From: Bacillota bacterium
Lineage (GTDB): Bacteria; Bacillota_A; Clostridia; Lachnospirales; WQUN01
Assembly: GCA_009786175.1 (NCBI GenBank)
Contig: WQTQ01000236.1
Location: 1 to 48,518 of the forward strand
Length of the DNA: 48,518 nucleotides
Reading direction: 5' to 3'
The notes below the pieces were generated by a model. The model was not told the DNA's origin and did no database searches. It saw only the letters and a program-made list of their open reading frames with translations. The position numbers and the translations under genes were made by a program. Below are positions 18,401 through 43,575 of this stretch, one piece after another. Positions within the stretch are counted from its first letter, which is position 1; every line of letters starts with the position of its first letter.

Positions 18401-20326
18401 ATGAGTCATACAAAACGCAAGACTTCAATTTCTCTATTAACATTTTTAGCATTTATTTTAGCAATACCAATTTTTACAGCCAATCTGTACGCGACACCAA
18501 TAGTCATAGATCCAAGTGAAGGCATAGATGTTGTCTTGGTTATTGACACCAGCGGCTCTATGAATAATTCTGACCCGGAACGTATAACATTGGAAGCCGC
18601 GTCTTTATTTATGGATATGATGGAAACACGTCATTCGCGGATCGGTATTGTCGGTTTCTCCAGCGATGCGCATTCTGTTATGCCGCTTTCGCCAATTCAC
18701 ACGGTGTCAACAAGAAACCATATTCGCAACACGGTTTCCCGTTTTGTATACCATGGGTGGACAGATATTGGGCTCGCACTTCGCACAGCGGTAGAAATGA
18801 TTAACGAAAACCCCGTGGCTAACAACAGCCCCATGATTTTGCTGTTTACCGACGGCCGCATTGAGTTAGATGAACGGTTTGGCCGCACTGTTATAGATTC
18901 TTATAACGACGCATGGTGGGCAGTAGAAAACGTCGGCGAAAACGTACCTATCTACACTATAGGTTTAAACTACGACGGTGTCGTTAATGCCGACTTTTTG
19001 TGGGAAATTGCCAACAGAACCCATGGGGAATCACATATTATCGAGGATGCCGCGCTGCTTCCCGAACTTTTCCATAGAATTTTTGCAAACCACATACGTT
19101 CCTCTATCCACGAAATTGCTACCGTTATACCGGTTGGGGACGAGTTTAACGATGTAACAATTCCCATCCCCAGTAATTTTGTTGCGGAAGCTAATATTAT
19201 TATGCTGTCAACAAGGCCCGTAACAGAGGTCCGTTTATACGACCCTTCCGGAAGAGAAATTTATTTTGACGACTATGTATTTACTCTGACAGCAGCCAAC
19301 CGTTATTCCATGATTAAAATCATGGAACCCGTTGCAGGTGATTGGCGGCTTAGTGTCAGGGGCTTGCAAGAAGACCGGATTACTATAAATTTGATTTATA
19401 ACTACACGATAGATGTTGCTTTCTCCATAACCCAACCCAGTATGCTGGACGCTTTTTTCGATCCCGCGCTTCCGGTAGTTGTAAAAGCAAACTTTATAAC
19501 TCCTTTACCGCCTTCACAAGTTCGCGCTTTACTTTCAGAATCCGAGGCTGCAATAAACATATATGACTTAAACATGAGTCTATTGGAGATAATGCCAATG
19601 CAGTATGATGCTGTCGGTAATTTTTTCGCCGCAGAATTTATACCCGATCCGCCGCAAAATGTACGTATTAACATAAATGTAACTCACCCCGAATTTTCAC
19701 AAACCACTCCAACAGTATCCATTACCTTCTGTCCGGACGCACTTGCCGCACCTCCTCCTGTCCAACAGCCGGACCCGTCAACCCCTGTCGATGATCCTAC
19801 ACCACCACCTCCGCCTCCACCACCGGCAGAACCGGATCCTGTTCCTGTCCAAGAACGTTCTAATACGTGGATATTTATAGTACTTGGTATTTTGATAGTA
19901 ATTTTATTGGTTGCACTTCTTTTTGTTGTATTTAACACACAAACAAAACGCAACGCATTTATGGGCCACCTGGAAGTACGCTCGTTACTAAGCAACGGCA
20001 AGTATACCGCTCTCGAAGCCCCCAGCCTAAATACATTCGCAGGAAAAATTTCACTTGCAGAATTTTTCATGGTCAGTTTGGGCGAAAGGGCAAGCCGCAT
20101 TCTGGAAGCAAATGTGCCGATAGACGGAGTATTTATAGAGCCCGTAATTGTAAATAACCGGTCAATGATTAAACTTACCACAAACGGTGCATGCGTTATT
20201 ACCGATCCTGATAAAAACGTACTTCTCCAACGCAAATTTATTTGGGAAAAAGATTTGAAATTAACATTTTCTCTTGTTGACGCAATCGAAAAAATTGAAG
20301 TCACCTACAGAATTAACGAAGACTAA
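18401..20326 (+). CDS. Membrane-anchored von Willebrand factor A (VWA) protein
   Basis: The 641-residue protein starts with a signal peptide (hydrophobic residues 9-30). A VWA domain with a complete metal-ion-dependent adhesion site follows: D49-T-S51-G-S53, T121 in HGWTDIG, and D151 in FTDGR. Two or three beta-sandwich-like extracellular segments come next, then a Pro-rich linker (about 448-482) and one transmembrane helix (about 488-510). About 130 cytoplasmic residues with an all-beta, FHA-like look end the protein. The VWA domain therefore faces out while the C-terminus can meet the cytoplasmic GTPases encoded next. The ATG at 18401 follows GGGAGGCGGAG. It is the first gene of the block; the tubulin-like gene starts 12 bp after its stop. 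Confidence 0.88.
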   Translation: MSHTKRKTSISLLTFLAFILAIPIFTANLYATPIVIDPSEGIDVVLVIDTSGSMNNSDPERITLEAASLFMDMMETRHSRIGIVGFSSDAHSVMPLSPIHTVSTRNHIRNTVSRFVYHGWTDIGLALRTAVEMINENPVANNSPMILLFTDGRIELDERFGRTVIDSYNDAWWAVENVGENVPIYTIGLNYDGVVNADFLWEIANRTHGESHIIEDAALLPELFHRIFANHIRSSIHEIATVIPVGDEFNDVTIPIPSNFVAEANIIMLSTRPVTEVRLYDPSGREIYFDDYVFTLTAANRYSMIKIMEPVAGDWRLSVRGLQEDRITINLIYNYTIDVAFSITQPSMLDAFFDPALPVVVKANFITPLPPSQVRALLSESEAAINIYDLNMSLLEIMPMQYDAVGNFFAAEFIPDPPQNVRININVTHPEFSQTTPTVSITFCPDALAAPPPVQQPDPSTPVDDPTPPPPPPPPAEPDPVPVQERSNTWIFIVLGILIVILLVALLFVVFNTQTKRNAFMGHLEVRSLLSNGKYTALEAPSLNTFAGKISLAEFFMVSLGERASRILEANVPIDGVFIEPVIVNNRSMIKLTTNGACVITDPDKNVLLQRKFIWEKDLKLTFSLVDAIEKIEVTYRINED

Positions 20327-20337
20327 GAGGTGCAAAC

Positions 20338-23300
20338 ATGAAGTTGTCGGCAGAAATAAAATCTGAATTACAGTCGCTGGACTGTGAGTATGGCGGCGGC
20401 ATATCAACGTCAAGTACCCGCACAGATGTTATTGACAAACCAATTTTAATTATAGGACTTGGTGGAACAGGCGCGGAAGCATTAATACGGGTTAAGCGTT
20501 CCATAAATAAGCAATTTAAACTTGGCGTATCCGCCAGCGGTCGCAGGCTTGATAAACCGCCGCAGATAGAGTACATGGCAATCGATTCGGACAACAATAT
20601 GCAAAATCTCAGCTATGCGGGTACCACCTTATCAAATGACGAGTTTATGTGCCTGGATACAGCAAACCTAACTTCCATTTATAAAAACCGCGACACTGTT
20701 TTTAAAAATTCCACTCAAAGCTGGATAGCCGATAACTTACGATTGCAGCAAGTAAAACACGGTGCAGGCGGCATCAGGCAAGCAGGACGGCTGCTTTTGA
20801 CAATTAATTGCAACAGCGTTATTTCCATGCTGACAGAAAAAATTAACCGCCTGGTAACAAATCGCAAAGCAAACGACCTTCTGTATGTATTTATTACAAC
20901 CGGTTGTGCCGGTGGTACAGGCAGCGGCATTTTTATTGACGTACCGTATCTAATAAGAAAAATTGCAGAACAAAAAGGTTTTGAAACCGAAAATATCGGT
21001 ATGATTTTTTTGCCTGACGTAACTCTTTCAGACAGTACCATAGACGGTTCTGCTGCGCTAAATATAAAAGCGAATGGGTTTGCCGCGTTAAAAGAGCTTG
21101 ATTATTTAATGAATATCGAGCGCAACGGCGAAACCTTTGAGCAAACCTATGCAGATTTAGACATTAAAGCAAGCCAGCCCCCCTACGACCTTTGCCATCT
21201 AATAAGCGCGAAAGACGAAAACGGTAAACTTGCTCCATCTGCTAAAGACTACTGCATGAATGTAGCAGCCGAAACTATCATAAATTTCATAGCAAGTGAA
21301 GAAGTAATTGACGGTCAAAGCTACACAATCAGCTCATACCTTTCAAACATCGAAAATAACAAATCTGCGTTTATAATGACGCACCAGCAAAAACAGCCGG
21401 TAAATTACATCTACAATACTGTGGGCGCGTCCAGCGCGGCGTTGCCGATAGAGTATCTGATTAATTATCTGACATGGAAAATGTTCAGCGAGTTGGATAA
21501 TTTAAACGACAATACCCCAACATTTGACGACTCTCAACTTATGTTAGAGTCTTTTAAGCTTGACTTACCCACATTGGAGCGTAGATTAAGCCAAGACAGA
21601 CCCCCTGTAAGGGATTTTAAACAGTATGACCATACGGTTTTACAGGAACGTCCGGATATTTTAGAAGATGCTGTAAAAAAAGAACTTAGCAAGTTAGAAG
21701 ACCATTACAATAAAGTAGCCAATCAAGTAATTGAGGATTTTATGGGCGAAATTCAAGATAAGAATAACGTCTTCTTACAGCATTTTACAGATTTAGAAAC
21801 CGGGCCTTTTTATACGTTAAAGGCACTTTCGGACCTGCACGAGTATTCCACAACCCGTATTATTGATAATATCCGCAAACGTGACATTCAACAAAAACGC
21901 GAGCACCGGGATAATCTTGCTGCACTTGATGTAATACGTAAAACCGCTGCGGAAAAGTTACGAAAAAGATCTCTTCTCTCCCTTGGTAAAAAAAGCCGGG
22001 CAGCATATATCGTAGAGACAAATGAAAATTATCTTCGCATGTCCGGGCGAAATCTTATGTATGATGCCATCGACCGCGTTTACAATACGGTTTCCGAAGA
22101 ACTACGTAATTTTTATGACCAAAAAATAGACTCCTATTGCGAATTGCTAACGGCATTTAGGGAATTGTTTGTTAAGTTTAAAGATACAGAGCGTACAAAG
22201 GCTGTAGACGCTAATTTTGCATGGGACCTTGAAGATGCCCGTGTTTTTTGCGAAACATTTGAAGAAGATTCATCAGCTGCAATAGATTACAAAATGTCTT
22301 TGAAACGCCTGTTGCAGGATATGATACAAAAACCCGGCTGGACACCGGGGCCAACCCATACAATTGTAGAAAACTTAAACTCATTTGTAGCGCAGCAATT
22401 TCAAAGCGTGGCATATAAATCTTTGGATCACTACTGCAACATGATGGCTGACGAAAAAGAGTTGAGCTTGGAAGAATACGTCAGCGAAAAATTAAGTACA
22501 CTTAACGACAGCGCGAAGGTAATGTTTCCAATCAACCACATACCAAGCGGGCTTCATATTACGTTCCCACCGTATGCATACCTGTCTGTTCCTTCAAACG
22601 CGCCAAAAATACGCAATGTAATTAAGAATATGGGTGGAAAAATTCCAAACATAAAATACAGCAAAATGAACAACCGTTTATACATGCTAAATTTAAAAAT
22701 CGCTGTTGCATTGTATTGCTATAAAGAGCTTAACGACTATGAAAACGTATATGAAAGTTCCTTGGGCAAAATCGCGGGGATACATTTATATGAAAGCAGC
22801 ACTCGCAATTGGAAAAACCTCCCTTCACCTTTATACGATAAATTATGGACAAAAGATCATGAAAACCACCGCGAGCGTCTAAGAAATAACCGCTTACGCG
22901 AAATTTTTGACCAAGCCATTGAAGCAGGCATTATCCGCCATGACGAGCAAGCCCGCCGCCTGATAGGCTATTTTGGCGACCCCATAGATTTGTATAAAAA
23001 ATTCGCCAAAGTAGAAGCCAATATTGCAGAAAGAACTCTTTCTGCTGCACATGCAAGGGCAATTATTGCAGAGTTAAACGCCTTCTTAACAGACCCTGCC
23101 CGCGAAAAATACAGCGTACCCCTGTTCGATACAGAGTATATCCCGGACACCGATACCCCGGATCTTGAATATGCTAAAGGCGTATTCATATACATGCCCG
23201 CCCTAAGCGAATACATCACCAAAGAAATACAAATGCGCCAGTATATTTCTCAATTACAAGATACACTTACAAAAATTGATGTAAGTGAAGTAAAATATAA

Positions 23301-23688
23301 CCATTTCGCACAACTACTGTACATGGGAACAATCAGCAAAAACCGCAAAAACTACAGATATGCCGTAGACGGTGAGTATCATATTTTGTATACCACCCAA
23401 ACAATAAGCGAGCAATATGTAGAGTTCGATTTGTTCCAAGCATATCTTGCGCTGGATGAAGGAATTGCGTCGCATTTGCAAAAGCGCGCGCAGGAAGAAG
23501 AAAACCGTTGTACAGACGAGCAATTCTTATCCTTAGTTAAAACAATTGATGGGTATATTAAAGTTTACAAAGAAAAGCTTGATAAGCTAGAAGAAAATTA
23601 TGCAAGCGAACGTGACGGGGCAATAAAAAAATTGTTCTATCAAACCATGCTTAACGTATTTATACGTGAGAAGAAGGTTCTGTCGTAA
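20338..23688 (+). CDS. FtsZ/tubulin-like GTPase, very large (Tubulin_2-like)
   Basis: The 1116-residue protein has an N-terminal tubulin/FtsZ-type nucleotide-binding domain. Motifs are KPILIIGLGGTGAEALIRVK (residues 34-53) and the tubulin signature GCAGGTGSG (189-197) with FIDVPYLIRKIAE after it. The remaining 700 or so residues are mostly helical, charged and without a recognised family. FtsZ itself is about 350-400 residues and lacks such an extension, so this is not the division FtsZ. I expect a GTP-dependent filament or scaffold acting under the membrane with the VWA partner. AGAGGTG precedes the ATG, and its TAA shares one base with the next ATG. Confidence 0.88.
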   Translation: MKLSAEIKSELQSLDCEYGGGISTSSTRTDVIDKPILIIGLGGTGAEALIRVKRSINKQFKLGVSASGRRLDKPPQIEYMAIDSDNNMQNLSYAGTTLSNDEFMCLDTANLTSIYKNRDTVFKNSTQSWIADNLRLQQVKHGAGGIRQAGRLLLTINCNSVISMLTEKINRLVTNRKANDLLYVFITTGCAGGTGSGIFIDVPYLIRKIAEQKGFETENIGMIFLPDVTLSDSTIDGSAALNIKANGFAALKELDYLMNIERNGETFEQTYADLDIKASQPPYDLCHLISAKDENGKLAPSAKDYCMNVAAETIINFIASEEVIDGQSYTISSYLSNIENNKSAFIMTHQQKQPVNYIYNTVGASSAALPIEYLINYLTWKMFSELDNLNDNTPTFDDSQLMLESFKLDLPTLERRLSQDRPPVRDFKQYDHTVLQERPDILEDAVKKELSKLEDHYNKVANQVIEDFMGEIQDKNNVFLQHFTDLETGPFYTLKALSDLHEYSTTRIIDNIRKRDIQQKREHRDNLAALDVIRKTAAEKLRKRSLLSLGKKSRAAYIVETNENYLRMSGRNLMYDAIDRVYNTVSEELRNFYDQKIDSYCELLTAFRELFVKFKDTERTKAVDANFAWDLEDARVFCETFEEDSSAAIDYKMSLKRLLQDMIQKPGWTPGPTHTIVENLNSFVAQQFQSVAYKSLDHYCNMMADEKELSLEEYVSEKLSTLNDSAKVMFPINHIPSGLHITFPPYAYLSVPSNAPKIRNVIKNMGGKIPNIKYSKMNNRLYMLNLKIAVALYCYKELNDYENVYESSLGKIAGIHLYESSTRNWKNLPSPLYDKLWTKDHENHRERLRNNRLREIFDQAIEAGIIRHDEQARRLIGYFGDPIDLYKKFAKVEANIAERTLSAAHARAIIAELNAFLTDPAREKYSVPLFDTEYIPDTDTPDLEYAKGVFIYMPALSEYITKEIQMRQYISQLQDTLTKIDVSEVKYNHFAQLLYMGTISKNRKNYRYAVDGEYHILYTTQTISEQYVEFDLFQAYLALDEGIASHLQKRAQEEENRCTDEQFLSLVKTIDGYIKVYKEKLDKLEENYASERDGAIKKLFYQTMLNVFIREKKVLS

Positions 23689-25559
23689 TGAGTACCCAAA
23701 GCAACCCTATTATATTTGTATCCTTGGGACAAGGTGCAGAAATATGGCAGCATTTATCAAATGCCCTCAAAAAGTATACAAACGGGATTGCCTATATTGA
23801 TGTACAAGAGCGTTTTGACGAACGTTGGGTAAAACGTGAAATAGGCCGTGTTTGGAAAGAATTTTTACAGCAAGGGCAAAATTCTGCCGACCTTGTACGT
23901 GTTAACTTTATTATTAGCACAGACGAAGCAGGCCCTATGCTGCCCGACCTATATAAATACACGGAAAAATATCTTTCTGCCTTATACCCGGCAGGCATTT
24001 TAGCAGATGTCTATTGCGTTCTTGATGATGACAGACTTCTCGAGAATGAAGACAACCGCAGACTTGTTATGCTGATGCTAAAACGCGAACAGCGCGATGG
24101 GCTGAATGTTTATTTACTGTCAAATTTAACAAGCCAAAATGTACTGATCCCAAATGAATCTATTGGGCATACAATTGCCATGTTAACACTGTTTAAAGAC
24201 TGTGTACCGGATTTATACGTAACAGGCGCAGATGCTTCCCGTTACAACGAGTTATATTTTTTAGATAATTGCTATGCAAAACAAGGGCAATTTTTAACAG
24301 CCAGCAGTTTAAATGTAACTATTCCGCTTGACGGGCTGAAAGCCGTTTTAATGACAGAGCTGCTCTCCTTCGGCAAGGACAACCCCGTTGAAGCAGGCAA
24401 TATATTGGACGAAAATATTTTCTTTCTTACACGTGTTAGACAGGTTCCCGCAAAATCCATGGAGTATTTATTGGGAATGGCCATACCTGCAGTAAATGTT
24501 AGTTCACATTATACCCGCCGTCAGTGGATAGAAAAATTGTTTGGCAAGCGTTTAGAGCTGCTGGCAGACACCAATAAAAAACCCAAAATCGAAGCACAAT
24601 CCGATTCTTTACCTAAGTTTAATGCGTTGGAAGTTAACCTATATGATTTAATACGCCTTACAAGCGAAGACGGCGTTTTTGAGTATTACGCGGCGGCGGC
24701 CCTTGAAAATGCACAAAATAATTTAGACACGTCTACAGAAAAGTTACACAGCTGGCTGGATACACCGCCATCTTTTATTAAAGGCAGCCCGGAAGCCGAA
24801 AAGCGCCGCCTTTCTCCTTTTATTTCACAAGATTTATGGCCGTATGTAATTGCATCGGATTATTTGAACGGACTGGCCAAAATACAGTATTGGAATGACG
24901 TAATAGAAATTATGGAGAAAAGATGCGAGTATGTAGTTGACGTTCATCATGAGTTGTTGCGTTTTTTGGATCAGGTTAATACAAAAATTAGCGAGTACAC
25001 AAACAAATCGCAAATTATAAATGATACTTTCGCACCGTTTTCCCCCAACGCAACAGATTATTTCCGCAACCTTTTTAAAGAATTTTCAATCGCCAATCAT
25101 GAAGGAATTGCAGATTTATCCAGACAAATGATAAAGGCCTTTGTCGAAGATGATTTCCATGGTTATCTAAAAAAATTGGACGAATATATTGATAATTATA
25201 TATTAACATCCAGATTTTTTGATAAGCCCATTATGGACACATTAAATGACATTGTTACGATACACGGGCACAGCGACATTCCTACCGCGCTGGGTGAATG
25301 GGTGTTTAACCATCGCAGGTGGAATATCCGCCTTAAAACCGGGTATGCCAATTTACACACAGAGATAAACTTGTTTATGCCAACCCAGGGCGCGGCAGAT
25401 GTTAAACACCGGTATGAAGAACGGGGCTTTGGGCGTATGAACCTATTTACAGATGAAAACGCCAACCACGTAGCTGTGCTGTACCACGCCGGTGCTTTCG
25501 ATTTAGAGGATTTATTTTATGGAAGTTTATATATTGACAATTATGGTGAAGACGAATGA
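23688..25559 (+). CDS. Conserved-operon protein of unknown function (623 aa)
   Basis: I do not recognise a named family. The protein is cytoplasmic-looking, acidic and alpha/beta at the N-terminus, then helical. Its start, NPIIFVSLGQGAEIWQHL, can be laid against the tubulin-like neighbour's KPILIIGLGGTGAEALIRV, but no GGTGSG follows. In the place where the signature would fall it has VYLLSNLTSQNVLIP. A diverged, nucleotide-free tubulin-like paralogue is therefore possible (inference). The helical second half includes DLWPYVIASDYLNGLAKIQYWNDVIEIM. The start overlaps the previous stop by 1 bp and the end overlaps the next gene by ATGA, so tight co-translation is likely. Confidence 0.85.
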   Translation: MSTQSNPIIFVSLGQGAEIWQHLSNALKKYTNGIAYIDVQERFDERWVKREIGRVWKEFLQQGQNSADLVRVNFIISTDEAGPMLPDLYKYTEKYLSALYPAGILADVYCVLDDDRLLENEDNRRLVMLMLKREQRDGLNVYLLSNLTSQNVLIPNESIGHTIAMLTLFKDCVPDLYVTGADASRYNELYFLDNCYAKQGQFLTASSLNVTIPLDGLKAVLMTELLSFGKDNPVEAGNILDENIFFLTRVRQVPAKSMEYLLGMAIPAVNVSSHYTRRQWIEKLFGKRLELLADTNKKPKIEAQSDSLPKFNALEVNLYDLIRLTSEDGVFEYYAAAALENAQNNLDTSTEKLHSWLDTPPSFIKGSPEAEKRRLSPFISQDLWPYVIASDYLNGLAKIQYWNDVIEIMEKRCEYVVDVHHELLRFLDQVNTKISEYTNKSQIINDTFAPFSPNATDYFRNLFKEFSIANHEGIADLSRQMIKAFVEDDFHGYLKKLDEYIDNYILTSRFFDKPIMDTLNDIVTIHGHSDIPTALGEWVFNHRRWNIRLKTGYANLHTEINLFMPTQGAADVKHRYEERGFGRMNLFTDENANHVAVLYHAGAFDLEDLFYGSLYIDNYGEDE

Positions 25560-26164
25560 ACAAAAATTTTATCCTTCAACACGATGTAGACAAATCTATG
25601 AAACTGCGGCAATTTGATTGGGAAATAGAAAACAATTATGTGACATTAAGCTGGCAGTGGCCGGTAGACCGTTCTGTCAGACTGGCACTTGTTTTCCGAT
25701 GCGAGGAAGAAAACCCAAATCTTGAAGACCTTATTCAAAGCAATTATCATCACGATGTAATTGTACGCGATTTGGCTTCTAATTTTACTGTTGAACTACC
25801 GGAAGGGCGAAGCAAGTTTTTAATTTGCCCGGCATATTTTGATGATAATAAAAATATTTCTGTATGTATGTCCTCTTTTATAACGGACTGGGTGTATAAA
25901 AGATTAAAAGTGTCTGTGCGGGTTTTGTACAGTCCCATATCTTTTAGCCAATTTCAAAAGGCAACTCTCTCTGTCACGTCTGATTATGTACAGCCGGATG
26001 CAATTTCCTATGTTATACAGGAAAATGGCCAGACAATTGCCTCTTATCCGTTAGATTCTGCCATTATAACCGGCGGCGGATACATTTATATAAGCAAACA
26101 GCAAACAGTTAAGTTTATATTAAACCCCAATTATGCGCATCTGATAGAATTGAACGAGTCTTAA
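25556..26164 (+). CDS. Small beta-rich operon protein, unknown function (202 aa)
   Basis: The 202-residue protein is predicted to be almost all beta, with two sandwich-like halves. YVTLSWQWPVDRSVRLALVF resembles the first strands of a fibronectin-III or Ig-like domain. The second half contains VSVRVLYSP, ATLSVTSDYVQPDAISYVIQENG and TVKFILNPNYAHLIEL. No signal peptide or transmembrane helix is present, so it should be cytosolic. It may be an adaptor between the GTPases and the membrane protein; that role is inferred only from the operon. It overlaps the previous gene by 4 bp. Confidence 0.8.
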   Translation: MNKNFILQHDVDKSMKLRQFDWEIENNYVTLSWQWPVDRSVRLALVFRCEEENPNLEDLIQSNYHHDVIVRDLASNFTVELPEGRSKFLICPAYFDDNKNISVCMSSFITDWVYKRLKVSVRVLYSPISFSQFQKATLSVTSDYVQPDAISYVIQENGQTIASYPLDSAIITGGGYIYISKQQTVKFILNPNYAHLIELNES

Positions 26165-26188
26165 TCTAAACATGAAGGAGCTTGAAGT

Positions 26189-27610
26189 ATGCAGGAAAAA
26201 AAACAAGAACAAATTATCTGCCCCTTCTGTTGTTATCGCTTTCATCCTAACCAGGCCGATTTTAGGCTTGGCGGCTCTGTAAAATCACAGGATGAAAAAT
26301 TGATTAATTATTATACAGACGTAATGCTGCTGGATATAACAGAGGCAAAAGAAAAATCTGTCCAACCAGCTTCTGTTTCCTTGGAAGCCGACGGGCAGTT
26401 TATAACGTTTGATGAGTCTGACATTGAAAAATACGGATTTGTACAACGCATAACTTATGCAAAAGGCAAAGGTAAAAAACAATTATCCGAACAACGCCTT
26501 TGCCCAAACTGTCATAATAATTTACCGGTTGGATACGGAATGCGGGATACATTGTTAATTTCCATCTTAGGTGATGCAAGGTCCGGAAAGTCTGTATATT
26601 TGACTATGTTAATAGCCGAACTTGAAAATAACGCCGACTTTACGTCTAAGTTAACATTTATTGGCGACAAGCAAACCCGTGACAATTTTTTCGAAAATTA
26701 TCAAAAGCCGCTGCTAAAAGAGCACACATTGATAAGTTCTACAAAGCGGAAAAAAATCCCACCTTACGCTTTCAATTACTGGTATCAATATAAAGATGAA
26801 ACCGGTGACGAGAAAGAAAATTCTGTTGACATAATTTTTTATGACATCGCCGGCGAAGATTTAAGAGATGATGTTGGAATACGAAATAACGGGTTTAGTA
26901 TAAAATATTCTTCCGGGTTAATATTTTTAGCAGACCCTACTAATTTTAAACGTTTGGCAGATTTATTCCGTTTTTCAGACTCGGCTCTTATTGAAGCAAT
27001 ACCGGAAGAAAATTCTAATCAAGCGATTTTTAATACTTTGTATAACTATTTCATTGGCTTTGATAGGGAAAAGTCATCTATTCCGTTTGCTTTGGCCATT
27101 TCAAAAGCAGATCTTTTTAAGCATGTAAATTTCGATTTTTTTAACAATAAACCTGAAAACAGAATCCAGCATATAATTTATGATGAAATCCATCGCGGCG
27201 CGGTTAACATACCAAGTATTAAAGGAATCAACGAAGAAGTGCGTGAAATACTTTCCTACTTGAATGAAGACGGTATAATAAATAATGCCGTGGGTTGTTT
27301 TAAGAATGTAAGTTGTTTCGCACTGTCAAGCTTAGGAAAAAAGCCTATTGTAGAAAAAATTAGCGACCCTGCAACTAACGAAACTGTAGAAAAGGGTTTT
27401 ATTGACGGGCAGTTAGAACCATTCCGGGTCAAAGATCCATTTTACTGGATTCTTATGCGTAATCAACTGTTACCGCAGCATGAGAATAACCGTTTTTCTC
27501 TTAATAAAGAAACAACGTCTGAAACAGAAGAACAAAAACCGGTGTCCATACTGCAACAAATTGCGAATTTTTTCACAAAACTCCTGAGCAAACACTTGTC
27601 AAGAGAATAA
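26189..27610 (+). CDS. Zinc-ribbon P-loop GTPase (double-GTPase-like)
   Basis: The 473-residue protein starts with a split zinc ribbon: C11-P-F-C14 and C105-P-N-C108. A GTPase domain follows, with Walker A GDARSGKSVYLTM (about residue 128), a G3-type FYDIAGEDLRDD (about 218) and a G4-like SKADLF (about 304). The C-terminus is variable and ends in an amphipathic LLSKHLSRE helix. Such zinc-ribbon GTPases are found beside FtsZ-like and VWA genes, where they are thought to act in membrane remodelling. GAAGGAG lies upstream of the ATG. It is the last gene of the block, followed by a 157-bp gap before rimP. Confidence 0.85.
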   Translation: MQEKKQEQIICPFCCYRFHPNQADFRLGGSVKSQDEKLINYYTDVMLLDITEAKEKSVQPASVSLEADGQFITFDESDIEKYGFVQRITYAKGKGKKQLSEQRLCPNCHNNLPVGYGMRDTLLISILGDARSGKSVYLTMLIAELENNADFTSKLTFIGDKQTRDNFFENYQKPLLKEHTLISSTKRKKIPPYAFNYWYQYKDETGDEKENSVDIIFYDIAGEDLRDDVGIRNNGFSIKYSSGLIFLADPTNFKRLADLFRFSDSALIEAIPEENSNQAIFNTLYNYFIGFDREKSSIPFALAISKADLFKHVNFDFFNNKPENRIQHIIYDEIHRGAVNIPSIKGINEEVREILSYLNEDGIINNAVGCFKNVSCFALSSLGKKPIVEKISDPATNETVEKGFIDGQLEPFRVKDPFYWILMRNQLLPQHENNRFSLNKETTSETEEQKPVSILQQIANFFTKLLSKHLSRE

Positions 27611-27650: not shown

Positions 27651-27680
27651 AAAAAGAGTGGGTGCTTGCCCACTCTTATA
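27651..27680. terminator. Hairpin terminator between the GTPase gene and rimP
   Basis: A perfect 9-bp stem (AAGAGTGGG at 27654-27662 with CCCACTCTT at 27669-27677) closes a 6-nt loop. In the plus direction it is followed by ATATTATG. The true T-run (TTTTTT) is on the minus-strand side. It probably ends the plus-strand GTPase transcript weakly and blocks antisense transcription well. Confidence 0.6.
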
Positions 27681-27767: not shown

Positions 27768-28229
27768 ATGACAGAAACACTGGAAACATTACTTGCGCCC
27801 GTAGCGGAAGCACAGGGCTGCGAATTATACGACATTGAATATGTAAAAGAAGGCAGTGACCGTATACTTCGTTTATATATTGACAAAGAGGACGGCATAG
27901 ATATTGACGATTGCGAACGTGTAAGCCGCGCTGTAGAAGTTGTTCTGGACGAGCATGACCCTATACCGGGGGAATATCGCTTACAAGTAAGTTCGCCCGG
28001 TGTAGAGCGGAAACTTAAAAAGCCCGCGCATTTCGCCCGTTTTGTTGGAAGCAAGGTAGAAGTTCGCATATATGCACCGCTGGACCCTGTATCCGGGCGC
28101 AAAAAATTTACAGGTAAATTAATAAACTTTGACGATAACGTAATAACTATAAAAGCAATCGAAGATAATCAAGATTTTACATTTGATTTAAAGCAGGTAT
28201 CATCATGCAGGCTGGTTGTTTTCGATTAA
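27768..28229 (+). CDS. rimP: Ribosome maturation factor RimP
   Basis: The 153-residue protein helps assemble the 30S subunit. It has the family opening LLAPVAEAQGCELYDIEYVKEG, then LRLYIDKEDGIDIDDCERVSRAVEVVLDEHDPI and YRLQVSSPGVERKLKKPAHFARFVG, which form the N-terminal domain, and an SH3-like C-terminus. Length is normal. The ATG at 27768 has GGAAAGGA 9 nt upstream; an earlier in-frame ATG at 27738 lacks a ribosome site. It leads the operon rimP-nusA-ylxR-infB-rbfA-nrnA-truB-ribF. Confidence 0.96.
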   Translation: MTETLETLLAPVAEAQGCELYDIEYVKEGSDRILRLYIDKEDGIDIDDCERVSRAVEVVLDEHDPIPGEYRLQVSSPGVERKLKKPAHFARFVGSKVEVRIYAPLDPVSGRKKFTGKLINFDDNVITIKAIEDNQDFTFDLKQVSSCRLVVFD

Positions 28230-28263
28230 GAGTAGCACCCCACTAAAAGGAGGACCCATTACA

Positions 28264-29703
28264 ATGGATAACGGTAGGGAACTTATTGATGCGTTGGTAC
28301 AGGTATCCCATGAAAAAGGCATCGATAAAGAAATTATATTTGAAGCTATTGAGGCTTCACTGGTTTCTGCATGTAAAAAACATTTTGGACCAAGTGCAAA
28401 TGTTCGTGTTGTAGTAGATCGCGAAAATGGCGAATATGTAGTGCTTGCGACAAAAATTGTTACTGAAAAAGTTGAAGATGAGATGGCGGAAATTAGCCTG
28501 GAAGACGCACGCAAGCTAAACTCAATATACGAGTTGGGCGACACCCTTGAAGTAAAAATTAAACCTGGCAATTTTGGCCGCATCTCTGCTCAAACAGCCA
28601 AGCAAGTCGTAGTGCAAAAATTCCGTGAGGCAGAGCGTGAAATTTTATATAACGATTACATTGATAAACAGCATAAAATTGTTACCGGCGTTGTGCAAAG
28701 ACGTGACCGCAGAAGTGTTATCATCAGTTTAGGGAAGTTAGAGGCTTTTCTTCCTACAGCGGAACAAATCCCGCGTGAATTATATCATTTTAACGAGCGT
28801 ATTCGCGTTTACGTATTGGAAGTTAAGCAAAGCAGTAAAGGCCCTATCGTAAATGTATCCCGTACCCACCCAGAATTGCTAAAGTATCTTTTCGAGCAAG
28901 AGATACCGGAAATACGCGACGGCATTGTTGAAGTTAAAGCCGTGGCCCGTGAAGCCGGCAACAGAAGTAAAGTTGCCGTATTTACAAAGCATCCTCATAT
29001 AGATCCGATTGGGGCTTGCGTAGGCCAGAACGGACAGCGTATTAATATGATAAGTTCCGAACTCAGAGGCGAAAAAATAGATGTGGTTCAATGGAACGAA
29101 GACTCTGCTAAATTCATCTCTGCTGCGCTGGGGCCAAGTAAAGTAGTTGCTGTTGCGGTAAATAAAGCACAACAAGTAGCCCATGCAGTTGTTCCGGACC
29201 ATCAACTTTCTCTTGCAATTGGTAAAGAAGGACAAAATGCCCGTTTAGCCGCACGCTTAACCGGCTGGCGCATAGATATTAAAAGTGAATCTCAAGCTGC
29301 AGGAACAGACTTCCTGGTATTCCCGGAACAGGAAGTTGAAAAAGAAGACTTAATAAATCTTGAAGCAGCCTACGCAGATTTTTATGAATCTGAACCGGAT
29401 GTGGAACCAATTGAAGACGTGGAAGTAGCTGCGGAAGAGGCAAGTGAAACAATAGCGGAAGATGTTGTTCAAGAAACTGTTGAAGAGATTGAAGAAACCA
29501 TAGCCGCAGACGACACCGGGGATGAAGAGTTGACAGACGTTGCTGCGGATGAGTATTACGACGACGAATATTATGATGACGAGTATTATGACGACGAATA
29601 CTACGATGACGAATATTATGACGACGAATACTACGATGATGAATATTACTATGACTACGAAACCGCATCACCTGAAGCAGACCAAGAGACGGCGGATGAA
29701 TAA
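28264..29703 (+). CDS. nusA: Transcription termination/antitermination factor NusA
   Basis: NusA binds RNA polymerase and nascent RNA, controlling pausing and termination. The 479-residue protein has the N-terminal polymerase-binding domain, an S1 domain (KIVTGVVQRRDRRSVIISLGKLEAFLP) and two KH domains (IGACVGQNGQRINMISSELRGEKIDVVQW and LSLAIGKEGQNARLAARLTGWRIDIKSE). An unusual acidic tail of EYYDD repeats replaces any long C-terminal domain. AAAGGAGG precedes the ATG at 28264. Its TAA shares a base with the ylxR ATG. Confidence 0.97.
   Translation: MDNGRELIDALVQVSHEKGIDKEIIFEAIEASLVSACKKHFGPSANVRVVVDRENGEYVVLATKIVTEKVEDEMAEISLEDARKLNSIYELGDTLEVKIKPGNFGRISAQTAKQVVVQKFREAEREILYNDYIDKQHKIVTGVVQRRDRRSVIISLGKLEAFLPTAEQIPRELYHFNERIRVYVLEVKQSSKGPIVNVSRTHPELLKYLFEQEIPEIRDGIVEVKAVAREAGNRSKVAVFTKHPHIDPIGACVGQNGQRINMISSELRGEKIDVVQWNEDSAKFISAALGPSKVVAVAVNKAQQVAHAVVPDHQLSLAIGKEGQNARLAARLTGWRIDIKSESQAAGTDFLVFPEQEVEKEDLINLEAAYADFYESEPDVEPIEDVEVAAEEASETIAEDVVQETVEEIEETIAADDTGDEELTDVAADEYYDDEYYDDEYYDDEYYDDEYYDDEYYDDEYYYDYETASPEADQETADE
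29551..29655 (+). repeat. Tandem 15-bp repeats coding (EYYDD)n at the NusA C-terminus
   Basis: Six full EYYDD units and a seventh EYYYD copy occur in frame. Codons vary between copies (GAA/GAG, TAT/TAC, GAT/GAC), so the peptide rather than the DNA is conserved. It forms a strongly acidic, tyrosine-rich tail. Confidence 0.95.
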
Positions 29704-29969
29704 TGCAACCAAAACGAAAAATACCCCAGCGCAGGTGTGTTGGCTGTCGCGAAATGAAAGATAAAATTCAGGTATTGCGCATTGTCTGCAATGCAGACGG
29801 CAATATTTCGATAGACAGAACAGGAAAAGCCCACGGACGTGGCGCATATGTATGTCGAAATACTGACTGCCTGAATATGGCAATAAAATCTAAAGGGCTG
29901 GAACGTTCATTAAAACGTGCCGTGCCGCAGGAAATATATGAATTGTTGAAAATAGAATTAGAAAGGTAA
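29703..29969 (+). CDS. ylxR: YlxR/RnpM family RNA-binding protein
   Basis: The 88-residue basic protein has the YlxR signature: PQRRCVGCREMKDK, LRIV, and GRGAYVCRNTDCLNMAIKSKGLERSLK. This family binds RNA and in Bacillus modulates RNase P. Length is normal. It starts on the last base of the nusA stop codon and ends 9 bp before infB. The ribosomal L7Ae-like ylxQ gene that often lies between ylxR and infB is absent here. Confidence 0.93.
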   Translation: MQPKRKIPQRRCVGCREMKDKIQVLRIVCNADGNISIDRTGKAHGRGAYVCRNTDCLNMAIKSKGLERSLKRAVPQEIYELLKIELER

Positions 29970-29978
29970 GGTGGCTTA

Positions 29979-32900
29979 ATGCCAAAAACCCGTGTGCACG
30001 AACTGGCCAAGGAATTAAATGTAAGCAGTAAGGAACTCATGACAAAGATGGAGGCATACGGGGAACCCGTTTCTAATCATATGAGTTCGTTGGAAGACAA
30101 CCATGTTTCAAGGCTTAGAACAGATTTTATCAAACCGGCTTCAAGACCTGCTGCGTCTGAAGGCGCGCAGATTCGCCGTGAGCCAAGACTTGGCCCCGAC
30201 GGTCAACCGTTACCGCCGCGTCCGCGGCCCATTGGCCCCGACGGCAAGCCTTTGCCGCCCAGGCCAAGATTGGGCCCGGATGGCAAACCTTTACGCCCGC
30301 GTCCTATTGGCCCCGATGGCAAACCTTTGCCGCCCAGACCAAGATTGGGCCCGGATGGCAAACCTTTACCACCGCGCCCGCGTCCTCTTGGCCCCGACGG
30401 CAAGCCTTTACCGCCCAGACCAAGGTTGGGCCCGGACGGTAGACCTTTACCACCGCGCCCACGCCCTGTAGACGCGGAAGGTAACCCGTTGCCTCCGCGC
30501 CCGCGCCCGGCAGCACAAGACGGTACACTTGCTGCCCCTGCAGAAACATCCCCTACCCGCCCGGCTGCCGACACTGCAGGTGAGTCAAGGCCGCCCGCTG
30601 CTGCATCAAATGCGCAAGGTCATCAGTCACGACGGCAGGAAGGCTCCCGTCCGCCCCGTCATGAAGGGACACGCGGCGATTCCCGTCCTCCACGCCAAGA
30701 CGGCAGACCTCCTTATCAGGGAAGACAAGACGGTAACCGTCCTCCTCGTCAAGACGGCAGACCTCCTTATCAGGGAAGACAAGACGGTAACCGTCCTCCT
30801 CGTCAAGACGGCGGCAGACCTCCTTATCAAGGAAGACAAGACGGTAACCGCCCGCCGCGCCAAGACGGTGGCAGGCCTCCCTATCAAGGCGGGCAAGACG
30901 GTAACCGTCCTCCACGTCAAGACGGCGGCAGGCCTCCTTATCAGGGAAGACAAGACGGTAATCGTCCTCCACGTCAAGACGGCGGCAGACCTCCTTATCA
31001 AGGCGGACAAGGCGGCCGCCCGGGCGGAGCACCAGGCGGACGTCCTGCTTTTGGTGGAAACCGGCCAACCGGTGCGCCCGGTGGGCGTCCCGGCGGAGCT
31101 GCAGGTGCCCGCGGCAAAGATGAGAAAAAACCGGAAACATCAACAAGAGGCGATAAGCGTACAATATGGAACCGTCAACAGCATGAACAGGCTATTGGTG
31201 CCAAAAAAGATAGAAAAGACAGTTTCAGCAACGAAAATCGCCAGGCACTGGATCGCAGAAATAAAAATACAAAACCTGCAAAAAGAGTTCCTGTACAAAA
31301 GGTAGAGCCTGATGTTTCACTTATAACTGTGGCGGAAACCATTACAGTTCGCGATTTGGCAGAAAAATTAATGCGTTCCAATGCGGAAATAATTAAAGTT
31401 CTTATGAAGCAAGGTGTAATGGTAACCGCAAACCAGACCATAACTTTTGAAGCGGCTTCTTTGGTTGCCGAATCATTTAACGTTTTGGTGGAAGCATATG
31501 TAGAAGTTGACGTGTTTGAAGAAGCTTTTTCTTCCGTGCCCGATGATGAAGAAAATATGGAATTACGCCCACCCGTAGTTGTTGTTATGGGTCACGTTGA
31601 CCACGGTAAAACATCTTTGTTGGATGTAATCCGTAACGCCAATGTACAAAAGTCTGAAGCCGGCGGAATTACCCAACATATCGGCGCATACAGCATAAAG
31701 CTTGATGACAGACGTGTAACATTCCTGGATACACCGGGTCACGAAGCTTTTACGGCAATGCGTATGCGCGGTGCCCAGGTAACGGATATAGCTATATTGG
31801 TAGTGGCCGCAGACGATGGCGTAATGCCGCAAACAATTGAGGCTATTAACCATGCAAAAGCCGCAGGTGTCGAAATTATTGTTGCAATCACAATGATGGA
31901 TAAAGAAAATGCCAATCCGGATAGGGTAAAACAGCAGCTAACGGAACACGGCCTGCAACCGGAAGATTGGGGCGGTCAAACAGTAGTTGTTCCCGTATCT
32001 GCCCGTCAAAAAATGGGTATAGACACACTTCTGGAAATGATTCTGCTTACAGCGGAAATGAAAGAGCTTAAAGCTAACCCAAATAAATCTGCCCGTGGCA
32101 GTGTAATTGAGGCTAAACTTGATAAGGGCCGTGGGCCCGTAGCCACAGTTTTAGTACAAGAAGGCACACTAAAAGTTGGTGACCCTGTAGTTGCAGGTGC
32201 AAGTTTTGGTAAAATACGCGCCATGGTAGACAGCCGCGGGCGTAACGTAAAGCAAGCAGGCCCATCTATGCCTGTTGAAATTATCGGCCTTGCGGAAGTA
32301 CCAACCACAGGTGACATCCTGTACACCGCGCAAAATGAAAAACAAGCCCGTCAGCTTTCCGAGTCTGTTAGGGCAAAAGAGCGCGTGGGCATGATTAAAA
32401 CAACAAGCAAAGTGTCTTTGGACGATTTGTTCAGCCAAATTCAAGCAGGGCAAATAAAAGATTTGAACGTAGTTGTCAAGGCAGACGTACAAGGTTCTGT
32501 GGAAGCTTTAAGAAACAGCTTAGAGAAACTGTCCAATGACGAAGTTCGTGTACGTATCATCCATACAGGCGCGGGTGCTGTTACAGAATCTGATGTAATG
32601 CTTGCCTCTGCGTCTAACGCGATTATCATTGGCTTTAACGTCCGTCCGGAACCTGTGGCAAAATCTGTTGCGGAATCTGAAAAAGTTGACGTTCGTTTCT
32701 ACAGTGTAATTTACTCTGCAATAGACGATATTGAAGCGGCCATGAAAGGTATGTTAGACCCAGAATTTGAAGAAAAAATTATGGGTCACGCAGAAATTCG
32801 TGAAATTTTCAAAGCTTCTAACGTTGGCACAATAGCCGGCTGCTATATTACCGAAGGAAAAATTTCCCGCAATGCAAAAGTGCGTATAGTGCGTGACAGC

Positions 32901-33062
32901 CGTGTAATTTATGACGGCACACTTGACACTCTTCGCCGTTTTAAAGATGATGTACGCGAAGTTGCCGCCGGTTACGAATGTGGTATGGTATTCAAAAATT
33001 ACAGCGACATTAAAGAAGGCGACAAAATAGAAGCATACACCATGGAAGAAATCCCGAGATAA
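29979..33062 (+). CDS. infB: Translation initiation factor IF-2
   Basis: IF2 delivers initiator tRNA to the 30S subunit. The 1027-residue protein has an N-terminal IF2_N helix domain, two blocks of Pro/Arg/Gly repeats (residues 72-177 and 236-346) and a second IF2_N ([27 protein letters not shown]). The GTPase domain (G1 [10 protein letters not shown]3 DTPGHEAF), domain II and the C-terminal tRNA-binding domain follow. The G4 motif, normally NKxD, reads T638-M-M-D641, with both the Asn and Lys changed. Length exceeds most Firmicutes IF2 because of the repeats. rbfA follows 27 bp later. Confidence 0.97.
30192..30509 (+). repeat. Coding repeat family 1 in infB ([12 protein letters not shown] type)
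   Basis: About eight units of roughly 12-14 residues with consensus [13 protein letters not shown] cover IF2 residues 72-177, with GC-rich tandem DNA of about 36-42 bp per unit. The region should be unstructured and polyproline-like. Confidence 0.93.
30684..31016 (+). repeat. Coding repeat family 2 in infB ([18 protein letters not shown] type)
   Basis: About six 18-19-residue units cover IF2 residues 236-346 and grade into a Gly/Pro-rich tail. Some units are nearly identical at the DNA level, so recent expansion by slippage is likely. The arrangement is coding and continuous and is not a CRISPR array. Confidence 0.93.
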
Positions 33063-39455: not shown

Positions 39456-39860
39456 TTATATACTAAGTGTCTTCAATTCTGCTACAACTTTGGACATTAC
39501 GTCAAAATCCTTATCGTTATGAAGAAGATATAAGCCATTCTCTATTGCTGTAAGCGCGATAAGTATATCCAATACACTTCTTGGGGTTACTCCACGCCTT
39601 CTTAGGTTAAAGTATAACGCTGCAGCCTTCTCATACGTTACTATTGCTTCCGGCAACAGAAAAATTCTTATAGAAGACAAGTAAAGCTTAAGTTTAGTAA
39701 ACTCATGCTCGTCCTTGGCTCCTTGCAAAATTTCTTGATAGGTGTATGCCGATATGCCATAGGGGATTTTGTTCTGCAGTATTTTTTTAAACAACAATAC
39801 TTTGTCGTTCATGGCACCTTTTAAGGAGTCAATTATTACAGAAGTATCGACTAATACCAA
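39456..39860 (-). CDS. PIN-domain ribonuclease toxin (VapC-like)
   Basis: The 134-residue protein has the PIN acidic triad. The first Asp is in LVDTSVIIDSLKG, a Glu is in YTYQEILQGAK, and an Asp pair is in VLDILIALTAIENGLYLLHNDKDFD. VapC-type toxins cut tRNA or rRNA and are held inactive by their antitoxin. The start is TTG directly after the antitoxin TAA, with GGGAGGGA 6 nt upstream, so synthesis is coupled. The best-known partners of PIN toxins are VapB-type; here the partner is RelB/DinJ-like. Confidence 0.88.
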   Translation of the reverse strand: MVLVDTSVIIDSLKGAMNDKVLLFKKILQNKIPYGISAYTYQEILQGAKDEHEFTKLKLYLSSIRIFLLPEAIVTYEKAAALYFNLRRRGVTPRSVLDILIALTAIENGLYLLHNDKDFDVMSKVVAELKTLSI

Positions 39861-40142
39861 TTATCGTCCCTCCCTAAGTGCTTTATAATCGTAGTTATCA
39901 GCAAACTGTATATTTCCAAACAGCTCCAGTATATTTTTTTCTGCATGCCCATCTTGGTTTACGGAATGTTTCTCAGATGCTGTATCCAGCGTAAGTTCAA
40001 AAGGTATAGCCTGCTTTCTAATAGATTGGCGTAAAAACATGTTTATCGCCGCACTCATAGACAAACCAAACTGCGCAAACAGCTCCTCTGCTTGTTTTTT
40101 TACTTCACTGTCTGTTCTAATATTCATGCTGGTAGATGCCAT
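39861..40142 (-). CDS. RelB/DinJ-family antitoxin
   Basis: The 93-residue protein opens with the RelB/DinJ ribbon-helix-helix pattern STSMNIRTDSEVKKQAEELFAQFGLSMSAAINMFLRQSI, which dimerises to bind its operator. The C-terminal half is acidic and probably unfolded until it wraps the PIN toxin. The start has AAAGGAGG and a clear promoter at 40172-40200. It probably represses that promoter together with the toxin. Confidence 0.9.
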   Translation of the reverse strand: MASTSMNIRTDSEVKKQAEELFAQFGLSMSAAINMFLRQSIRKQAIPFELTLDTASEKHSVNQDGHAEKNILELFGNIQFADNYDYKALREGR

Positions 40143-40302: not shown

Positions 40303-40399
40303 GGGAATAGATGCGTGCTGGTGTGCGCCAAGGTCTTCAACACCTATGCAGGTGGCCAAAAGCTGCCCAGGTGGGTTCGATTCCCACATATTCCCGCCA
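40303..40399 (+). tRNA. selC: tRNA-Sec (anticodon UCA)
   Basis: The gene folds as a selenocysteine tRNA. The acceptor is GGGAATA with TATTCCC, discriminator G and encoded CCA. A long 6-bp D stem (GCGTGC/GTGCGC) has a 4-nt TGGT loop, and the anticodon loop CTTCAAC carries TCA. A long variable arm (GGTGGC/GCTGCC with a CAAAA loop) and T-arm GTGGG-TTCGATT-CCCAC complete it. At about 97 nt it is longer than ordinary tRNAs. It stands 52 bp before selD, and a small hairpin (40411-40429) between them may aid 3' processing or partial termination. Confidence 0.95.
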
Positions 40400-40451
40400 A
40401 AATCTTCGTTGTTGGCCTGTAATGCCAACGCGTTTATATACAGGAAATTTC

Positions 40452-41483
40452 ATGGACATTAAAACAATCAGTAAGCTTGCCGCTTGTGGCGGCTGTACCG
40501 CAAAATTGCCCCCGGGGATGCTGAAAGACAGCCTTTCAAAAATCCCTAAATTTGACGACCCCAATTTATTGGTAGGCTTCGACAGTTCCGATGACGGGGC
40601 AGTTTACAAACTTAGCGACGATATCGCTATTATTCAAACGTTGGATTTCTTCCCGCCTATGGTAGATGACCCTTATTTGTTTGGGCAAGTTGCGGCGGCC
40701 AACGCCTTATCCGACATTTACGCAATGGGCGGTGACGTTAAAGTTGCCTTAAACATCGTTGCCTTTCCGGAAAATGAAGACCCGGGCATATTGGCGGCAA
40801 TTTTACAGGGCGGCGGCGAAAAAGTAAAGGAATCCGGCGGTGTACTGTGCGGTGGCCATTCAATTAATGACACCACTGTAAAATATGGCCTGTCTGTAAC
40901 AGGCGTGGTTCATCCGGACAAAATTATGCAAAATAACCGCTGTAGGATAGGCGATAGAATAATCCTGTCAAAACCACTTGGGATTGGGCTTGTAACGTCT
41001 GCCTACAGGGTTGGGGAAACAAGCCGCGAAAGTTTCCACATGGCAGTAAAATCTATGGTAACGTTGAATAAATACGCTTTCGAGATTGCAAAAAAGTACG
41101 ATATTTCAAGCCTGACAGATGTTACGGGCTTTGGCTTTTTAGGGCACTTGAATGAAATGGTGGATGGCAATAAGTATTCCATTCAAGTTAACAGTTTGAA
41201 TGTAAACTTTATCCCCGAAGCAGAGCGGCTTGCCCGTGAATTCTTGCTTACTTCTGCCGGGCAAAAAAACCGAAATTTCCTTGCGGATAAAGTAAAATTC
41301 GAAAATGTGGAAGATTGTATACAGGAAATTTTATTCGACCCACAGACATCCGGCGGGCTTCTTATTGCTGTATCCGCAAAAGATGCCGCGTTACTTTTCG
41401 CAGAACTGGGTAAGCTGGACCTTACGCCAAGCATTGTGGGCGAAGTTGTGCCAAGGCTGTCCAAAAATATTATTGTGTGGTGA
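40452..41483 (+). CDS. selD: Selenophosphate synthetase SelD
   Basis: SelD makes selenophosphate, the selenium donor for Sec-tRNA and for selenouridine, from selenide and ATP. The 343-residue protein has the N-terminal active-site loop [14 protein letters not shown], where the Cys of GGC stands at the Cys/Sec position. Then come [62 protein letters not shown] and [11 protein letters not shown], and it ends with [12 protein letters not shown]. The ATG at 40452 is behind AGGAAA. A longer frame starting inside tRNA-Sec is not real. yedF follows 5 bp later. Confidence 0.96.
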
Positions 41484-41488
41484 TAATA

Positions 41489-42115: not shown

Positions 42116-42124
42116 GGTGAGATT

Positions 42125-43267: not shown

Positions 43268-43493
43268 AGAACGAAAGCCAAAGCTGGTTATCGGCTTTAA
43301 CACCACCACTGCCGCCCTGGCTTTTGAAGATACTTGCAAACTTGGGCGGCTAATTCCCCTGCCCTCGGAAGTTAAAGCCGGGTGCGGGCTGGCATATTGC
43401 ACAAATATTGAACACGAAGATGAAATCGAAAAATTATTGCAGGAGAAAAAAATAGATTATTTCGCGAAACAGGTTGTTATGTTGTACTTGTAA
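43260..43493 (+). CDS. DUF3343 small protein (putative Se/S carrier-like)
   Basis: The 77-residue protein matches the DUF3343 pattern: KLVIGFNTTTAALAFEDTCK at the start, GRLIPLPSEVKAGCGLAYC in the middle with the GCGL Cys and a second Cys, and a short C-terminal helix-strand. This family usually lies beside selenium or sulfur-relay genes and may carry the element on its Cys. The ATG at 43260 overlaps the previous gene by 8 bp. It is the last gene before a strong hairpin. Confidence 0.85.
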   Translation: MNRERKPKLVIGFNTTTAALAFEDTCKLGRLIPLPSEVKAGCGLAYCTNIEHEDEIEKLLQEKKIDYFAKQVVMLYL

Positions 43494-43528
43494 AGAAAAG
43501 AGCAGCTGTCGTAGCCTGCTCTTTTCTT
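43493..43528. terminator. Bidirectional terminator between convergent selenium-locus arms
   Basis: A perfect 13-bp stem (43493-43505 with 43516-43528) closes a 10-nt loop. U-rich CTTTTCTT forms its 3' arm in both directions. It separates the DUF3343 gene from the convergent helical-repeat gene. Confidence 0.75.
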
Positions 43529-43575
43529 AATACTATAAACTTTTGCTTAATAACAGTGGGAATCATCAAGCAAGA

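Follow-up and report, generated by a model that had tools for sequence, protein, structure and literature searches.

A compact Tubulin_2/vWA/DO-GTPase operon without GAP1 in a Clostridia-related gut bacterium and its relatives

Makarova and Koonin in 2010 proposed, in the parts of their paper drawn on here (PMC2875224), a bacterial membrane-remodelling system in which a Tubulin_2 (FtsZl1) protein of ~1000–1100 aa is encoded together with a vWA protein carrying a metal ion-dependent adhesion site (MIDAS), a P-loop GTPase and further lineage-specific proteins, with members named from Bacillus, Brevibacillus, Clostridium and Corynebacterium. The parts of Kaur et al. 2020 (PMC7159879) used here describe a firmicute version made of two tubulins, two vWA proteins (one of them with several transmembrane (TM) helices), an FNIII protein, a DO-GTPase and GAP1, and predict a defence role for such systems; envelope cell biology is closer to the 2010 prediction. 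Here we describe a five-gene operon at positions 18401–27610 (+ strand) of the window, by which we mean the whole 48,518-nucleotide stretch analysed (contig WQTQ01000236.1), from a gut bacterium related to Clostridia. What is new is that this operon forms a separate lineage without GAP1, and we read it, with middling confidence, as a GAP1-less variant of the Tubulin_2/vWA/DO-GTPase theme that is inherited mainly vertically and would act as an envelope-linked assembly device. As an inherited variant of a predicted bacterial system, it is compact enough for laboratory study.

PMC9871819 treats Tubulin_2 proteins as divergent FtsZ-like sequences with a history of their own. PMC12008871 reports that in a methanogen an operon encoding vWA proteins together with a tubulin-like protein (CetZ) was up-regulated under both motions tested, which is suggestive only. 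No functional study of the FtsZl1/Tubulin_2 family was found in searches of an open-access library, a scope outside which most subscription papers fall. TubZ/RepX, BtubA/B and CetZ belong to the same FtsZ/tubulin superfamily; they are not known to have a long coiled-coil or helical extension or vWA or DO-GTPase partners.

Gene content and motifs of the five-gene operon

The first-pass annotation, made from the letters of the window, had summarised the 2010 proposal (an FtsZ-like family, a VWA protein, a GTPase and OmpA-type partners) accurately, as judged against the same parts of PMC2875224, and its placing of the operon with these systems holds, a linked vWA gene with MIDAS and a P-loop GTPase gene being present. 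The five same-strand genes that it described are borne out by the listing of open reading frames (ORFs), and the 1-bp overlap, the 4-bp overlap and the 24-bp spacing between the later genes stand, while the first gap is 11 bp and not 12.

The first gene (18401–20326, +) encodes a 641-aa vWA protein and starts at an ATG at 18401, with gggaggcggag just before it; the ORF listing extends the frame to a TTG at 18329. The vWA domain spans residues 43–224 (PF13519, E 1.3e-16; PF00092, E 1.5e-15), and its MIDAS letters (DTSGS/GWTDIG/FTDG) are complete and kept in 12 of the 13 rows checked, the 13th being cut by a contig end. A proline-rich stalk separates the domain from the membrane helix. Because hydropathy gives a signal-like first helix (9–27) and one strong TM helix (491–509), the vWA domain should lie outside and the ~130 C-terminal residues inside, in agreement with the surface protein with a complete MIDAS and one membrane helix annotated at first; this tail has no Pfam match above cut-off.

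The second gene (20338–23688, +) encodes the tubulin-like GTPase of 1116 aa, a length that fits Tubulin_2/FtsZl1 proteins (~1000–1100 aa). It matches Tubulin_2 (PF13809) with E 3.7e-65 and 220.9 bits against a cut-off of 27, and PF00091 with E 2.7e-4, below that family's cut-off; its tubulin-like domain covers residues 37–385. Both GTP loops, T1 (GLGGTG) and T4 (GCAGGTGSG), are intact and, in a motif table of 47 rows, are kept in all 16 rows of the window type (loci sharing the operon's gene order, see below), with one T-to-S change in T1. The 1116-residue tubulin-like GTPase with its GCAGGTGSG loop was thus correctly called at the sequence level. The fifth gene (26189–27610, +) encodes a 473-aa DO-GTPase2 (PF19993, E 6.8e-7, 29.6 bits, cut-off 27) with the motifs GDARSGKS, DIAGE and SKAD and the cysteine pairs CPFC and CPNC, all kept in 14 of 14 rows with S/V, SKxD and CPxC variation; the PF19993 match and the CxxC pairs confirm the zinc-ribbon GTPase of the earlier description.

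Membership of the FtsZ/tubulin superfamily would also accommodate a TubZ-kind apparatus for DNA or plasmid segregation, or a second division ring, yet we consider either highly improbable. An FtsZ_C match is present in 21 of 21 genomes checked, so the operon tubulin is unlikely to be the division tubulin; no DNA-binding Pfam family is found among the five operon proteins, the vWA partner is a membrane protein, and the neighbours on both sides of the operon look like housekeeping genes. Nearer to the 2010 proposal, tubulin-like filaments at the inner face could bend or constrict the membrane together with the vWA protein and the GTPase, as a remodelling or vesicle machine. Such a machine would share family and operon logic with that proposal and would suit the membrane anchor of the vWA protein; however, we found no test of filament formation in the literature searched, T6-H7 could not be placed in FtsZl1 in the parts of PMC2875224 cited, where a reviewer proposed transport or signalling as the alternative, and nothing in the locus points to curvature in particular. 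We regard this explanation as decidedly unlikely.

The first-pass annotation had also taken the lack of an OmpA protein as the mark of an undescribed Gram-positive version. None of the five Pfam-scanned proteins is indeed of OmpA type, but the argument had to be rejected: in the relevant parts of PMC2875224, OmpA occurs "in several genomes" only and Gram-positive members are included, and PMC7159879, in the parts used, has a firmicute version. Like the FtsZl1/vWA/GTPase operons described there (PMC2875224), the present one combines a Tubulin_2 protein of ~1000–1100 aa, a vWA protein with MIDAS, a P-loop GTPase and further lineage-specific proteins; unlike them, it has no protein kinase or OmpA gene, and its two domain-less proteins can be assigned here by profile comparison. 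With the GAP1-N2-type DO-GTPase systems, as portrayed in those parts of PMC7159879, it shares a DO-GTPase2 with zinc-ribbon-like cysteines, two tubulin-like proteins, a membrane vWA protein and, putatively, an FNIII-like component. Its real departures from them are the lack of GAP1, the lack of a second vWA protein and the presence of a second system in related cells, whose genomes carry, besides the operon, an orphan tubulin of canonical type and, at another site, a DO-GTPase/GAP1 locus; in addition, its tubulin and GTPase form lineages of their own.

The 623- and 202-residue proteins

The third gene (23688–25559, +) encodes a 623-residue protein that had been called unknown. It has no Pfam family above cut-off, and a PDB search was also without result. 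Profiles were compared with hhalign, whose E-values refer to single comparisons, ~160 of which were made in total. Three third-slot proteins of canonical operons (see below) match the tubulin-like family with E 4.2e-14 (Prob 98, 684 columns), and the 623 family (44 sequences) matches these three proteins with E 7.4e-9 (Prob 96, 511 columns), beside reversed and unrelated profile controls at E 0.06 or more; with two canonical sequences the corresponding values are 2.1e-11 and 4.3e-5. The globular N-terminal parts alone still match (E 1.5e-8 for canonical against tubulin, 4.9e-6 for 623 against canonical), which argues that coiled-coil is not the sole cause of the similarity. The GTP loop (GGTGSG) is gone in the 623 family, GG[TS]G being found within the first 260 residues in 1 of 44 homologues. 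By profile comparison through these intermediates, we read the 623-residue protein as a degenerate tubulin paralogue without GTP loop, a predicted pseudo-tubulin and dead partner, so that the label "unknown" no longer fits.

Several comparisons weigh against this assignment. Compared directly, the 623 family matches the tubulin family weakly (Prob 36, E 3.8e-4), and its N-terminal part does so at E 5e-3 to 1.4e-2. In global mode, the match of the two families (0.5–0.6) is no better than the reversed controls (0.06–0.1). A pooled profile of 623 and canonical proteins reaches E 7.7e-7 against the whole tubulin family and only 1.8e-3 against the tubulin domain alone, and the C-terminal parts of the 623 and canonical proteins do not match each other (E 0.59; last 110 residues 0.02). 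Third-slot proteins of remoter operons led no further: hhalign gave no significant match among them or with the 623 family, and for one group the similarity to the tubulin family was confined to that family's helical part (E 6.8e-4). Two tubulin-domain proteins, as in the firmicute theme, are nevertheless found in the operon, one by Pfam and the other via canonical slot 3 with the direct comparison weak; the two tubulin-domain genes of Kaur et al., as given in the parts of PMC7159879 cited, may already include the 623 slot. The theme's two vWA proteins are not both found here, the operon having one vWA gene; a second occurs in the canonical operons of genomes G063, G004 and G426.

The fourth gene (25556–26164, +) encodes a beta-rich protein of 202 residues, also annotated as unknown at first and without a Pfam family above cut-off. 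Its family matches the small beta proteins of a second locus (see below) with E 1.9e-4 over 120 columns, canonical slot-4 proteins with E 3.8e-3 over 162 columns and a third group of small proteins with E 1.2e-4; against seven single sequences of remoter operons the values are 7.5e-3 or worse. The second-locus and canonical small beta proteins match each other with E 1.9e-33. By profile comparison, the 202-residue protein, a putative adaptor, is distantly related to the beta protein encoded ahead of the DO-GTPase and GAP1 elsewhere. The component in this place is called FNIII by Kaur et al. 2020 (PMC7159879, in the parts used), and by inference the 202-residue protein is FNIII-like; no Pfam fn3 model matched, and a PDB search with its profile gave a cytokine receptor as sole, non-significant match (E 0.92).

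Recurrence of the operon and a second, dispersed system

Genomes (G) and loci (L) are labelled as in the analysed sample, for which 146 genomes were chosen as relatives of the L001 genome. Tubulin_2 is matched at E 1e-3 or better in 39 of the 146 and above cut-off in 37, and the window-type operon is present with the same gene order in 15 (L034/L001, L040, L042, L045, L047, L050, L052, L053, L055, L058, L061, L063, L065, L067 and L068). Flanking genes mostly differ among these loci, so the recurrence of the gene order is more than chance would give. The tubulin, 623-type and 202-type genes are each found in 15 of 15 loci, the 202 type of L065 by tblastn (the gene caller takes the longest frames, and at least one gene, this one, is mis-framed), which supports the earlier claim that the two additional proteins are locked into the operon beside the tubulin gene. 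The vWA gene is likewise present in all 15, cut by contig ends in four, and the DO-GTPase in 13; the contig of L055 ends just past its 202-type gene. All nine named homologues of the 623 and 202 proteins come from Defluviitaleaceae metagenome-assembled genomes (8 of 45 and 1 of 14 of the matches listed).

In four genomes a hybrid histidine kinase directly follows the window-type GTPase (L040:1447-3096; L042:1748-3415; L090:713-3847, for L061/L090; L091:802-3840, for L065/L091); as a regular partner it was rejected, being confined to these four and lacking in the window. In G033 (L067/G033:C68) the operon lies beside secA too, in an arrangement other than that of the window. Two Tubulin_2 genes close together, followed by slots of ~600 aa and ~230 aa, were seen at L077 and L169.

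The canonical order in G063 and G004 is vWA, tubulin, a protein of 773/643 aa, a second vWA, a protein of 210/208 aa, DO-GTPase and GAP1 (GAP1-N2 147.8 bits and GAP1-M 63.5 in G063; GAP1-N2 117.8 in G004); G426 shows the same order (GAP1-N2 137.8). These are the canonical-type examples of the GAP1-N2 tubulin theme in the sample, and their parts list agrees with that in the sections of PMC7159879 used. Another arrangement, seen in G119 and G035 and as truncated pieces in G030 and G037, runs vWA, tubulin, ~640 aa, ~200 aa, GTPase and, where complete, a last gene of ~980 aa. In this last gene the GAP1-N2 bit scores for G119 are 23.6 and 27.8 (cut-off 24), and for G035 the model finds no match. 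Three Tubulin_2 types occur together in G030, namely the window-type operon, an orphan and the L054/L070 type (loci L047, L046 and L048), the last of which is also a cut piece in G037 (L170). We considered whether a 355-aa Tubulin_2 piece on G037:C321 might be the remains of a window-type operon; its identity is 83% with the L048/L054 type and 36% with the window type.

Among the ORFs of the window, the GAP1 profile built here has no match. All 15 operon-bearing genomes nonetheless have a GAP1-N2 match separate from the operon GTPase (19 of 20 genomes searched). In 14 of them it lies on a different contig, in the case of G038 as no more than a fragment where the contig breaks off, and G008 has it a few kilobases past the vWA gene; a simple loss of GAP1 from the operon was dropped as an explanation once this had been found. 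In 12 of the 16 regions fetched around GAP1-N2 a DO-GTPase directly precedes GAP1, a small beta protein precedes the DO-GTPase in nine of these 12, and a membrane protein follows GAP1 in the five cases displayed. Orphan Tubulin_2 genes of ~900–1140 aa (one cut to 546), with no partner families adjoining, occur in 17 genomes, several on short contigs; an orphan of canonical type is present in 13 of the 15 operon-bearing genomes, and operon, orphan and DO-GTPase/GAP1 pair come together in 11 of 15. The orphan tubulin of G036 (L049) has one more vWA-family gene, of 419 aa, a few genes away.

Phylogenies place the dispersed genes with the canonical operons. Orphan tubulins join those of G004 and G063 (support 100), whereas window-type tubulins form their own branch (100); second-locus GTPases join G063 and G004 (96/99), with the window-type GTPases apart (100/99). 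The trees carry long-branch flags and do not fix the attachment point of the window-type lineage. Our reading is that the canonical operon was dispersed in this clade, the window-type operon being a lineage of its own that lacks GAP1.

Inheritance, possible role and surroundings of the operon

SecA was searched in 56 genomes and fetched from 40 for a tree of 41 rows. The window falls within a clade of 21 rows (100/99), 15 of which, the window included, carry the operon, together with G011 outside the clade. A protein entered the comparison with SecA only where its own sequence was of sufficient length and SecA was among those fetched. Pairwise divergence of each of the five operon proteins is congruent with that of SecA (Mantel r 0.81–0.85, n 13–16, with 0 of 2000 permutations as high); for the orphan tubulin r is 0.84 (n 16) and for GAP1 0.90 (n 12). 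The operon thus appears to be inherited mainly vertically, and, since its proteins track SecA divergence, we consider an inherited cytoskeletal device linked to the envelope more likely than mobile defence.

Other observations weigh against that preference. In the tubulin tree G011 falls in with the G031 set (98), whereas SecA puts it outside the clade, a discordance that makes transfer possible. Six clade rows, all of them draft genomes (G002, G016, G026, G027, G028 and G037), yielded no window-type operon, and the remaining 845 bp of the L045 contig hold no GTPase match. Like mobile units, the operon occupies different sites: when 14 of the 16 window-type loci were compared (all but L045 and L055), 11 of 91 locus pairs shared a flank family; for orphan tubulin loci the figure is 8 of 78 pairs (13 of 17 loci). 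Flanks being mostly not conserved, genomic position appears to change while the operon genes stay. Evolution is fast in the 623 and 202 proteins, whose divergence averages 0.60 where that of SecA averages 0.23; an arms race would fit this as well. All contacts between the operon proteins are inferred.

Some of these points speak for a conflict (immunity) system of the kind that Kaur et al. propose for DO-GTPase systems, in which the fast-evolving beta and vWA parts would sense an invader, the DO-GTPase would set a threshold and tubulin-like effectors would assemble. The parts are homologous to the GAP1-N2 tubulin theme, two of the proteins evolve fast, the chromosomal sites vary, and distribution in the class is patchy: of 391 genomes, 14 have a Tubulin_2 match (above cut-off in 11) and 20 a GAP1-N2 match (above cut-off in 19), G001 and G426 being in both lists. 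However, divergence of the operon proteins tracks SecA across the clade, PADLOC models match none of the five proteins better than E 0.026, relatives in phages and plasmids are rare (1 of 50,697 and 7 of 72,556 records), and the operon contains neither GAP1 nor a recognised variable effector gene. A PADLOC scan of 81 of 85 flank proteins (the other four being IF-2 and three pieces of 118–169 aa) returned 42 families at 1e-10 or better, with mad3 and mad8 having four members each, AriA three and methyltransferase models one; these are raw counts, from a set that includes second-locus genes of G008. We take a conflict role to be a live possibility, though an unlikely one. Conflict system, membrane remodelling and assembly device overlap in chemistry and differ in purpose.

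For the envelope-linked assembly device that we favour, hydropathy and family knowledge suggest the following scheme. The outward vWA domain would bind a divalent-cation-dependent ligand, which may be another cell, the cell wall or a polymer on the surface. The state of the domain would be relayed through the single helix to the cytosolic tail, which may anchor a complex of the active tubulin-like GTPase with the inactive partner. Between this tubulin complex and the DO-GTPase, whose GTP cycle could set assembly or release, the 202-residue beta protein would form the link. The output would be a membrane-tethered, nucleotide-controlled protein assembly at the envelope, serving a standing cell-biological function rather than a mobile defence cassette, and the GAP1 that related genomes encode at another site may serve the operon GTPase in trans in addition to its own. 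A bolder picture, which we offer only tentatively and think rather improbable, has two parallel tubulin-like systems in the clade, a dispersed canonical one and a compact one, the latter with an obligate pair of active and dead tubulin, a single-pass vWA receptor and a DO-GTPase gate, together forming an outside-to-cytoskeleton link, a counterpart of integrin coupling, possibly with one shared GAP1. With a compact five-gene version whose parts can be named, the predicted dead tubulin partner included, polymerisation, pairing and the GTPase switch become testable by co-expression, and mainly vertical inheritance beside a sister system offers a handle on the question of defence versus envelope cell biology.

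A terminator-like stem-loop of 10 pairs with a loop of 4 (27654–27677, +), found by pattern scan, starts 43 bases past the last operon stop; the scanned region holds 17 such patterns against a shuffled mean of 12.4, and the hairpin is weak evidence on its own. As read from translations, the upstream neighbour is a gamma-glutamyltranspeptidase and the downstream neighbours are rimP-nusA-infB; at 28216–33062 the nusA-like gene has a C-terminal DEYYD repeat run and the infB-like gene long repeats ([24 protein letters not shown]). The frame at 43576–44457 was tried as a further tubulin (profile E 3.5e-4) and rejected as a chance match, its 293-aa product being a low-complexity helical repeat (EEGIRDIRKGL-like). 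By eye, a small gene pair at 39456–40142 reads as a PIN-type toxin and a RelB/DinJ-type antitoxin. A selenocysteine cluster lies at 40303–46456, where the neighbours of tRNA-Sec, as judged from their translations, are selD, selB and the genes for a cysteine desulfurase and a SirA/YedF-type protein.

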